64,000 nucleotides of DNA. Source: Thermoleophilia bacterium (GTDB lineage: Bacteria; Actinomycetota; Thermoleophilia; RBG-16-64-13). Position numbers and translations under genes: made by a program. Shown here piece after piece: positions 29,412-45,052 of this stretch. How positions within the stretch are numbered: the stretch's first letter is position 1; every line of letters begins with the position of its first letter. The stretch is from NCBI GenBank assembly GCA_027493445.1, contig JAOSKU010000001.1:620001-684000 (forward strand), in the 5' to 3' direction. The notes below the pieces were generated by a model, which did not search any database, was not told the DNA's origin, and saw nothing but the letters and a program-made list of their open reading frames with translations.

Positions 29412-29415
29412 TGAA

Positions 29416-29576
29416 GCGCTCGACCTTGTGCGTGATTTGCCTCAATCTTGAGCCAACACATTTCTCTTGGGAGGTCGGCTCGATCGGGCGGCTGCACAGC
29501 TCTCCGATGGCCGCCACCCACCTGCTTACGCAGGTTCAAGAGCCTGGCGGACACGGCAAGGTGGAGCATTTCCTTT
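29416..29576 (+). ncRNA. ssrS: Probable 6S RNA (RNA polymerase regulator)
   Basis: No protein frame fits this 232-nt gap. The RNA would fold as a long rod: closing stem GCTCGACCTTG (from 29418) with GCAAGGTGGAGC (ending 29567), inner stem TCTTGAGCC (29446-29454) with GGTTCAAGA (29533-29541), a large central bubble, and an apical part. A small hairpin CCTGC-TTAC-GCAGG (29521-29534) lies on the 3' side of the bubble, as in many 6S RNAs. Position directly after aspS is the same as for B. subtilis 6S-1 RNA (bsrA). 6S RNA mimics an open promoter and binds sigma-70 holoenzyme. No covariance search was run. Confidence 0.6.
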
Positions 29577-43150: not shown

Positions 43151-43975
43151 ATGGACGCGGGCGACGGGGCGCACCCCGAGACCGGTCCGCGACCGGCGAG
43201 CCGGCCGGACGCGGCCGAGACCGAAAGGGCAGTCGAGGAGGACAACGAAAGCCTCGTTGCCCGCTACCAGCAGGGCCTCTGCGTGGAGTGCCTGGATGCG
43301 CTCATGCAACGCAATGAGGGTCTCCTGCACCACATTCTCAAGCGATTCTCTTACGCACAGGAGCCGTACGAGGATCTGTTCCAGGTCGCCCGTCTGGGCG
43401 TGATCAAGGCGGCGCAACGCTTCGATCCTGCGAAGGGCAACGCCTTTACCACGTACGCCGTGGCGGTGGCCGACGGCGAGGTGCGCCACTACTTGCGTGA
43501 CTCCCTACTTGTGCGGCAGCCTCGATGGGCCCGGGCCCTCTACAAGAAGATACGGGACACACAAAGTGACTTCTATCACAAGCACCACCGATCGCCGACC
43601 GTCTCTGAGCTCGCCAACCTGGTGAATGTGCAAGAGGAAGGGATCCTGGAGATCATTCGCGCCACCGGGGCGACCGCCCTTCATTCCCTGGACGAGCCCT
43701 TCGACGAGCAGCCGTCAACTCAGCCCGACCGGGCGCTCATGCGCTCGCTGCGTCAAGAGACGTTCTCGCTGCCGATCGAGGATCGTGTGCTGCTCTATGA
43801 AGCGGTCTCGGCTCTTTCCGAGATGCACCGGAAGATCATCTACTTACTGTTCTTTCGTGACTTCACCCAGCAGGAAGTGGCCAACGAGATGGGTCTGACC
43901 CAGAGAACTGTGTCCCGTGAGCAGAGCAAGGCGCTTGACCGCCTCAAGGCGGTCCTGAGCAAGAAGATCCTCTAG
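43151..43975 (+). CDS. Group 3 sigma factor linked to pilBTC
   Basis: A 274-residue sigma factor with regions 2 (LLHHILKRFSYAQEPYEDLF; RLGVIKAAQRFDPAKGNAF), 3 (PTVSELANLVNVQEEGILEI) and 4 (MHRKIIYLLFFRDFTQQEVA; GLTQRTVSREQSKALDRLK). The region 2-3 junction reads GEVRHYLRDSLLVRQPRW, nearer SigB/SigF than the RxRGAxIDELR pattern of WhiG/FliA. Its gene starts 6 nt after pilC, so it is probably made with the pilus motors. An RsiG-like gene lies 2.6 kb away. Its partner anti-sigma factor and its regulon are unknown. Confidence 0.88.
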   Translation: MDAGDGAHPETGPRPASRPDAAETERAVEEDNESLVARYQQGLCVECLDALMQRNEGLLHHILKRFSYAQEPYEDLFQVARLGVIKAAQRFDPAKGNAFTTYAVAVADGEVRHYLRDSLLVRQPRWARALYKKIRDTQSDFYHKHHRSPTVSELANLVNVQEEGILEIIRATGATALHSLDEPFDEQPSTQPDRALMRSLRQETFSLPIEDRVLLYEAVSALSEMHRKIIYLLFFRDFTQQEVANEMGLTQRTVSREQSKALDRLKAVLSKKIL

Positions 43976-43993
43976 CGTGCCGTCACCTCCCGC

Positions 43994-44047
43994 CGGTCTT
44001 CGCTGCAACGCACGATAATATGCATTATGTCAAGTGCGAGAAGACCG
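43994..44047 (+). other. Compound hairpin downstream of the sigma gene
   Basis: CGGTCTTC (43994-44001) pairs with GAAGACCG (44040-44047), CGCAC (44009-44013) with GTGCG (44034-44038), and within the loop ATAAT (44015-44019) with ATTAT (44024-44028). The AT-rich loop in GC-rich DNA is striking. It may be a terminator or a cruciform/protein site. Confidence 0.4.
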
Positions 44048-44076
44048 CGGCCGCCGGAGGCTTCCTGGGTTCGCTC

Positions 44077-44105
44077 TTGGCAGACAGCCCTCCGCCCTGT
44101 ACAGT
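44077..44105 (+). promoter_or_regulatory. Promoter of a probable small RNA
   Basis: TTGGCA (44077-44082) and TACAGT (44100-44105) are separated by 17 nt. Predicted start near 44112, about 8 nt before an unusually long Shine-Dalgarno-like sequence. Confidence 0.5.
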
Positions 44106-44111
44106 AACCAC

Positions 44112-44290
44112 AAGCGTCGAAAGGAGGTGGTCCAGATAGACAGTTCGCCTTGTGGGCGTAGCGACACCAGGACCGGGGGTGGCATCCGCCTATAGTCGCT
44201 GGCTACCCGACGGACGCCGCTGGCGGCGCTCCCGGGGGTCGCATACGCCTGATATGTACGCGAAGGCCGCCCCCAGGGCGGCCTTCGCCG
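44112..44290 (+). ncRNA. Candidate small structured RNA with extended anti-SD complementarity
   Basis: No convincing gene lies in 43976-44469. From the promoter at 44077-44105 a transcript would contain AAAGGAGGTGGTCC (44120-44133), complementary over 14 nt (one G-U) to the 3' end of 16S rRNA, without an ATG at normal distance. It would continue with a GTAGCGAC...GTCGCTGGCTAC pairing and end at a 13-bp hairpin GCGAAGGCCGCCC/GGGCGGCCTTCGC (44260-44288). A frame of about 20 codons following the SD (from ATA at 44136 or GTG at 44127) ends at a TAG. Function unknown; a GTG-started frame at 44152 runs on through the hairpin and is judged not real. Confidence 0.4.
44260..44288 (+). terminator. Strong hairpin at the end of the candidate RNA
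   Basis: A 13-bp stem with a 3-nt loop (CCA) at 44273-44275. It is GC-rich and lacks a T-tract. Being symmetrical, it could also act on transcripts from the minus-strand apt gene that run into this region. Confidence 0.45.
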
Positions 44291-44450
44291 TTCTACGCCC
44301 CAGAGACACTTCGCCACCAGGGTGCACTGGGTGCGGGCGAGGCACGGACGCAGGGAGCGCGCGTAGCAGAGCTACGGACGTGATCGAGGACACCGCATCG
44401 CACCGCCCAGGGCGGCCGCGGCGGCCAAGGCTTCCTTTTGAAACGAGCTC
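44289..44450 (-). repeat. Dispersed palindromic repeat, full-length copy 5 with decayed left end
   Basis: The right end is a perfect GAAACGAGCTC (44440-44450). The core GATCGAGGACACCGCATCGC and ACCGCCCAGGGCGGCCGCGG match the other copies. The central hairpin CGTAGC-AGA-GCTACG (44362-44376) differs from that of copy 6 (CGTAGCC-GGA-GGCTACG) by compensatory pairs. Aligned length is about 162 bp. The left terminal repeat is degraded. Confidence 0.72.
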
Positions 44451-44469
44451 CTATCGGCCCGCGGCGGCC

Positions 44470-44982
44470 TCAATATTTAATCAGGCTGCCAACGTCGTAG
44501 CCCCCGAGCCTGCTGCGGCCCTTCAAGAACTCCAACTCGATGACGAAGATCAGGCCCACCACTACGCCGCCCGCCGCCTCGACCAGCTTGACCTTGGCGT
44601 CGGCCGTGCCGCCCGTGGCCAGCAGGTCGTCATGAATGATCACTCGCTGGCCCGGCTTGATCGCATCGACGTGCATCTCCAGCGAGTCGACTCCGTACTC
44701 GAGCTGGTACTCGGCCCGAGCCGTCTGCCAGGGAAGCTTGCCCGGCTTGCGGGCGGCCACGAACCCTGCGCCCAGTGCGTAGGCCAGGGCCGCCCCCAGA
44801 ATAAAGCCCCGGGCCTCCGCGCCCAGAACCACGTTAGGCTTGCGCGGGGAGCCAAACTCCACCAGTTGATCGACCGTGTAGCGCAGGGCCAGCGGGTCCT
44901 GAAGAAGCGGCATGATGTCTTTGAAGACGATGCCCTCCTTGGGGAAATCGGGCACATCCCTGACGAACGTTCGCAGATCCAT
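44470..44982 (-). CDS. apt: Adenine phosphoribosyltransferase
   Basis: A 170-residue purine salvage enzyme making AMP from adenine and PRPP. The PRPP-binding motif VIIHDDLLATGGT is at residues 114-126, and the base-binding segments include FPKEGIVFKDIMPLL and VVLGAEARGFILGAALAYAL. Length and motifs match the standard bacterial Apt. It is the last gene of the minus-strand run that begins at the rsiG-like promoter. In many Gram-positives apt lies near rel and recJ; here it is separated. Confidence 0.96.
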   Translation of the reverse strand: MDLRTFVRDVPDFPKEGIVFKDIMPLLQDPLALRYTVDQLVEFGSPRKPNVVLGAEARGFILGAALAYALGAGFVAARKPGKLPWQTARAEYQLEYGVDSLEMHVDAIKPGQRVIIHDDLLATGGTADAKVKLVEAAGGVVVGLIFVIELEFLKGRSRLGGYDVGSLIKY

Positions 44983-45052
44983 TTCTCACCTGATGCTGTC
45001 GTCGTTTCCGTGATGAGGGGCCGCTGCATGGCCCCCCGGGCGATGCCGGCCG

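Follow-up and report, generated by a model that had tools for sequence, protein, structure and literature searches.

In the 64,000-nt stretch of DNA analysed here (the window) an intergenic gap of 494 bp (43976-44469) separates a sigma-70 family gene on the plus strand (43151-43975) from apt on the minus strand (44470-44982). A DNA search in 61 genomes split the gap into two unrelated pieces. The first, at about 44075-44300, carries a small RNA gene and is conserved across the same genus and family. The second is a dispersed repeat of about 147 bp (44305-44451, no strand assigned), which is unrelated to the RNA; numerous copies of it, 84-91% identical and some of them in tandem, are present in the same genome, and related genomes have copies too. 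Because the 3' third of the gap is this repeat, the 494 bp were rejected as one continuous feature.

The gap also holds the dif-like site of the chromosome at the replication terminus (44008-44035, +), i.e. a site for resolution of chromosome dimers by XerCD. It is identical to the dif site of Frankia alni (sequence from PMC3025954) at 20 of 28 positions, the dif-like pattern has a single match in the genome, and the GC skew changes sign at the site, with a second change near 3.0 Mb, about half a chromosome off. The site lies about 100 bp upstream of the RNA and outside it. It was overlooked in the first-pass annotation, as was the repeat. The distance between RNA and dif was 103-319 nt in 7 of 14 loci and the RNA lies near dif in genome G012, too. 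Because dif and RNA are on separate contigs in six family genomes, the link is not a strict one. A 6S RNA is located elsewhere in the window (29415-29571, +; 72.3 bits).

The small RNA gene is preceded by a promoter on the plus strand (44077-44105), which consists of a -35 box TTGGCA (44077-44082), a 17-nt spacer and a -10 box TACAGT (44100-44105). In the region 43500-45000 this was the one promoter-like site, against 0.2 expected. The position of the -10 box is conserved in the wider family, where 130 of 171 distinct upstream regions have a TANNNT box with its end 12-15 nt upstream of AAAGG; the distance is 14 nt at the locus in the window. This places the extended Shine-Dalgarno sequence SD1 (AAAGGAGGTGGTCC, 44120-44133, +) near the 5' end of the RNA, within some 6-8 nt of the start predicted from the -10 box. 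SD1 pairs with the organism's own 16S rRNA 3' end, GGATCACCTCCTTT (complement read at locus L002), at 14 positions by 13 Watson-Crick pairs and one G.U pair. The sequence AAAGGAGGTGRTCC has two exact occurrences in the 4.7 Mb genome, SD1 itself and the complement of the 16S 3' end. The second AAAGGAGGTGATCC in the genome was rejected as another copy of the RNA, since it is that complement. Downstream, a 13-bp hairpin (44260-44288, +; helix 8) resembles a terminator with a poor T run; no plus-strand terminator with a good T run was found at this locus, and a crude terminator test was passed by 60 of 171 loci of the wider family. With the start set by the -10 box and the end by the hairpin, the gene would span 44112-44290 (+), about 180 nt. 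The promoter, the 14-nt complementarity and the hairpin had all been read from the bare sequence by the first-pass annotation, and all three were borne out, the complementarity with the organism's own 16S rRNA.

That annotation had also named beforehand a lack of conservation of the SD block in relatives as what would speak against it. Searches by pattern and by covariance model R1 located the RNA with its SD block in 15 of the 18 genomes of the family, with one gene copy per genome; it was not found in G002, G009 and G013, each of which is 96-99% complete. MAFFT alignments of the family contain the invariant sequence GAAAGGAGGTGGTC, three bases and then AT(A/C)GA. Elsewhere in the class R1 gave weak matches with the parts in the same order and different start codons, several of these matches being plainly due to chance. 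The pattern AAAGGRGGTGGTCC-N18-46-GGRGGT-N8-14-TAG occurred in 28 of 396 genomes of the phylum, while the reversed control gave 0 of 396. A pattern scan of named genomes yielded at least 119 stretches, mostly from Actinomycetota (Acidimicrobiia, Thermoleophilia, Streptomyces). Among the matches listed are single MAG contigs labelled Eisenbacteria, Acidobacteriota, Omnitrophota, KSB1 and Sphingomonas, labels that may reflect mis-binning, and a few of these odd matches may be due to chance. Thus, the comparative data confirm the predicted stand-alone RNA gene at 44112-44290 as a conserved one, and the initial observation as more than chance.

The surroundings of the gene differ between relatives, and no fixed neighbourhood was seen among 148 loci. 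A special link to pilus and sigma genes, as suggested initially, was therefore dropped. The same data bear on the possibility that the RNA acts in cis on a gene downstream of it, as a leader peptide or attenuator. Its short ORF (see below), structure and hairpin look like those of an attenuator, but the next gene, apt, is convergent on the minus strand, and the nearest downstream genes of the 148 loci come from different families, of which the one shared most often is on the opposite strand. Because the next gene is convergent and the neighbours differ, we concluded that the RNA gene is not a leader, and we regard this explanation as highly improbable. The earlier suggestion of an abandoned leader fails on other grounds, as conservation extends to the promoter position, the SD, the frame and the fold. 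Among loci L082-L228 there are 29 matches to a gyrA-like gene, named by eye from the sequence, that lies upstream on the strand of the RNA. It is the commonest nameable neighbour, and the RNA is thus located beside gyrA in part of the phylum. In an Eisenbacteria MAG (L169, 6859-6999 and 7040-7195, minus) the RNA is directly followed on the same strand by an FMN riboswitch, and by eye the arrangement at L156 is similar.

Downstream of SD1 comparative frame analysis identified a short frame of 19 codons (IDSSPCGRSDTRTGGGIRL) that starts with ATA 8 nt after GGAGG and ends with TAG (44193-44195; whole frame 44136-44195, +). As pointed out in the first-pass annotation, there is no ATG at a proper distance. 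A frame of about 20 codons with a GTG or ATA start had been among its proposals, and the comparative evidence strongly favors the version with ATA. GTG within SD1 was excluded as a start, since in locus L029 it is followed by TAG two codons later. All 16 loci of the family have an AT(A/C) codon 8 nt downstream of GGAGG, and the frame that begins with it runs for 18 or 19 codons to a stop, which is TAG in 15 loci and TGA in one. An in-frame deletion of 3 nt in L013 and L014 leaves the frame intact. In L010 an insertion of 1 nt falls at the stop, which becomes TGA, and the frame is kept.

The frame was followed in two further sets of loci. The first comprised the best-scoring 30 of 82 matches to the Rfam family RF02471 (Ms_IGR-5, an actinobacterial sRNA), which were picked by the covariance model alone with frames ignored. 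The second was the pattern set, for which SD1, SD2 (a second SD-like motif, see below) and TAG were required but a frame was not, and which includes a few loci of the own family. All loci are related, so that counts of loci are not counts of independent events. Exactly one frame with a start, open through SD2 and closed by a stop within 14 nt was present in 30 of 30 RF02471 loci; the same layout was found in 16 of 16 loci of the own family and in 125 of 129 pattern loci, one of which has a second such frame. The remaining four pattern loci have ACG at the start position. The other two frames were open in 0 of 60 (RF02471), 2 of 32 (own family) and 15 of 258 cases (pattern set). In the RF02471 set the frames have 12-13 codons with a near-cognate start and a stop just past SD2, which is TAG in 26, TAA in 2 and TGA in 2 loci; the preference for TAG in the pattern set is built in, because the pattern required it. 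Start codons were ATG, GTG, TTG, CTG, ATT, ATC and ATA, i.e. at most one base away from AUG. AUA is among the weakest of the near-cognate starts. Between SD1 and the start lie 7 to 13 nt, most commonly 8 nt, with the phase of the frame kept.

These data weigh against a small RNA that is not translated and pairs with its targets through its 3' part, with the 5' SD serving for stability only. A 30S subunit bound at a 5' SD, termed STAB-SD, protects an RNA from 5' nucleases, and the location of SD1 close to the predicted 5' end would suit such a role. Yet, a near-cognate start and a stop are kept in phase in 171 of 175 loci, with ACG in the rest, for which there is no reason without translation. 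Thus we consider an untranslated RNA quite unlikely.

If the frame is translated, its peptide of 11-19 residues might be the active product and the remainder of the RNA an mRNA with a stable 3' end. The strict preservation of the frame and C-termini that are partly alike within a taxon (EVAAR, EVTGR, TGGGxRL) would agree with a gene for a microprotein. On the other hand, heterozygosity was flat over the three codon positions in all three sets (0.32/0.22/0.24, 0.20/0.18/0.25 and 0.34/0.35/0.32), and the excess of third-position, synonymous changes expected of a small-protein mRNA was absent from each of them. Furthermore, SD2 encodes Glu-Val in most taxa and Gly-Gly in the own family, which indicates that the encoded residues follow the RNA motif. 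Because of the flat diversity and the reading of SD2 in different frames the peptide is an improbable product, and we rate a microprotein gene as rather unlikely. The best reading of the comparative data is that translation itself, rather than the peptide, is what is used.

SD2 has the sequence GGGGGT (44175-44180, +) and lies 10 nt before the last sense codon. The distance from the end of SD2 to the last sense codon, which would be the P-site codon of a terminating ribosome, is 10 nt in 16 of 16 loci of the own family, 8 nt in 29 of 30 RF02471 loci and 7-8 nt in 124 of 129 pattern loci. These distances are close to the 8 nt that is most frequent for SD1. SD2 is sequestered by a helix (helix 3) between 44173-44180 and 44228-44235 (both +), in which an A-U pair is replaced by G-C in 4 of 14 loci. 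All cells of this helix are paired in the own family. The consensus fold of the family has 49 pairs, 16 of which are changed on both sides, and 96.3% of its cells pair. Its covariation score was reached by 0 of 500 shuffles, a test that favors the fold because the fold was derived from the same sequences that were used to score it. The 3' hairpin had most of the pairs changed on both sides, 11 of its 14, compared with 3 of 9 pairs in the inner stem and 1 of 8 in the SD2 helix. The folding z-score of the RNA in the window was -3.0 versus 200 shuffles.

Two long-range pairings were examined in the wider set. With the own word of each locus GGTGnWWWW and WWWWnCACC fitted in full in 75 of 125 loci, which remained after loci with short regions and near-duplicates had been dropped; shuffling gave a mean of 23.4 and a maximum of 36 in 300 shuffles. 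The second pairing, GGAC with GTCC, was present in 109 of 109 loci and GGAC:GTCC was the most frequent of all 256 4-mers. Variants of it were TGAC, which was accompanied by GTCA in 3 of 4 cases, and GGAT, accompanied by ATCC in 3 of 5. The last codons of the frame take part in both long-range pairings, with compensatory changes. In the Rfam consensus structure of RF02471 part of SD1 is paired with GCUGCC; the covariation seen here instead supports pairing of SD2 with the 3' CACC strand and of GGAC with GUCC.

The same elements could be arranged as a plain trap that titrates 30S subunits, where SD1 captures the ribosome, a weak start delays it and SD2 holds it at the stop, with no switch involved. 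The 14-nt SD1, the weak starts (ATG in only 15 of 125 scored pattern loci) and the spacing of SD2 to the P-site are as such a trap would have them. It would, however, render the long-range helices and their compensatory changes superfluous, and with a single gene per genome in the own family the RNA would have to be very abundant. We therefore regard a mere trap as unlikely.

We then asked how the RNA relates to known families. At gathering level Rfam named no family for the locus in the window. RF02471 (gathering cut-off 45 bits) had 0 matches at E <= 1 in the whole genome and was unlisted for locus L098. RF01867 (CC2171, a Caulobacter sRNA) scored 28 bits against a cut-off of 75, with an E-value of 4e-4 in the 494 bp, and the locus was the best of 8 RF01867 matches in its genome. 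Because the cut-offs were missed, membership in either family by score was rejected. The RF02471 cut-off was passed by two Streptomyces loci and by L082, and matches above it occurred in 78 of the 118 genomes sampled from the class to which G320 belongs; L104, L169 and L084 stayed below it, and L104 and L169 were matched by RF01867 as well. Model R2, built from 38 relatives with the own family left out, had the own-family RNA as its best match in 15 of 18 genomes at E-values from 4.7e-4 to 0.15; for the locus in the window E was 0.15 in the genome and 0.002 in the window. The R2 matches together with the missed Rfam cut-offs speak for distant homology rather than membership by score.

The RNA shares its layout with Ms_IGR-5, i.e. 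a 5' SD1 (AAGGAGGTGGTCC in Ms_IGR-5), a short in-frame ORF, SD2, a stop and an SD2 helix, and both share the long-range GGAC:GTCC pairing and a -10 box at the same place. In contrast to Ms_IGR-5, the RNA is not recognised by the RF02471 model, has 19 instead of 12 codons and an ATA start, and SD2 is paired over its whole length. We concluded that it is a distant homolog, a divergent relative of Ms_IGR-5. It is probably a relative of CC2171 as well, with which it shares the CAA...GAAAGGAGGTGATCCAG 5' end and the 3' hairpin; much of the 28-bit score comes from SD1 and this hairpin, and the single locus with an alphaproteobacterial label covered in the comparison (L135) is a MAG.

Ribo-seq reads cover MS_IGR-5 homologs in M. 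abscessus and M. smegmatis (PMC4974804). In the part of that paper available to us the authors list them among ribosome-protected RNAs without obvious coding and caution that ribonucleoproteins leave footprints and that classical non-coding RNAs also give them. The accessible parts of further reports describe RNA-seq support for RF02471 in S. lividans (PMC8079986), an sRNA unit matching RF02471 in S. avermitilis (PMC8780764) and an overlap of M. smegmatis IGR-5 with ncMSMEG15794c (PMC10454040). The accessible text of papers that name Ms_IGR-5 contained no mention of a short ORF, the literature searched yielded no function for it, and the term IGR-5 is absent from the main text of Tsai 2013 (PMC3828370) as far as available. 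A literature search with the SD block sequence gave no match related by title among those listed, and a keyword search no paper on this RNA by title and abstract.

Taken together, we lean slightly towards a stand-alone RNA with an extended SD and a weakly started short frame, whose translation, not its peptide, would switch its fold between closed and open. From its own promoter an RNA of about 180 nt would be made that begins a few bases before the extended SD. With up to 14 base pairs SD1 would capture 30S subunits, and initiation would occur 8 nt downstream at a weak near-cognate codon, presumably ATA in this organism. The ribosome would translate 19 codons and terminate at TAG. Without a ribosome, SD2 and bases in the last codons would pair with the 3' half of the RNA, whereas a ribosome at the stop codon would have to melt the SD2 and long-range helices. 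It may dwell there, because SD2 then lies roughly as far from the P site as the SD does during initiation. Either the freed 3' half or the ribosome held on the RNA would be the output, and the RNA would act as a regulatory RNA whose fold is gated by ribosomes. As in leader peptides and translational attenuators, movement of a ribosome on a short ORF would change the folding of the RNA; unlike in these, the downstream gene, apt, is on the opposite strand and no regulated gene follows. Of the initial interpretation, contact of the RNA with ribosomes through its extended SD and a frame of about 20 codons are thus supported, while the abandoned leader and the connection with pilus and sigma genes are not.

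More tentatively, and with somewhat less than even confidence, we suggest that Ms_IGR-5, CC2171 and the RNA described here may form one ancient class spread over several phyla. Its members would be stand-alone RNAs with a short non-AUG frame that is fed by a maximal SD, ended over a second SD and threaded through long-range helices. With translation as the input and the fold as the output they might be trans-acting sensors or effectors of ribosome availability, initiation fidelity or termination. If Ms_IGR-5 is translated and gated by ribosomes, what has been classified as an ordinary sRNA is a housekeeping-like element of the Actinomycetota, and its Rfam structure would need revision. Its natural start codon, which wanders over the near-cognates, would then be a direct test bed for initiation fidelity.
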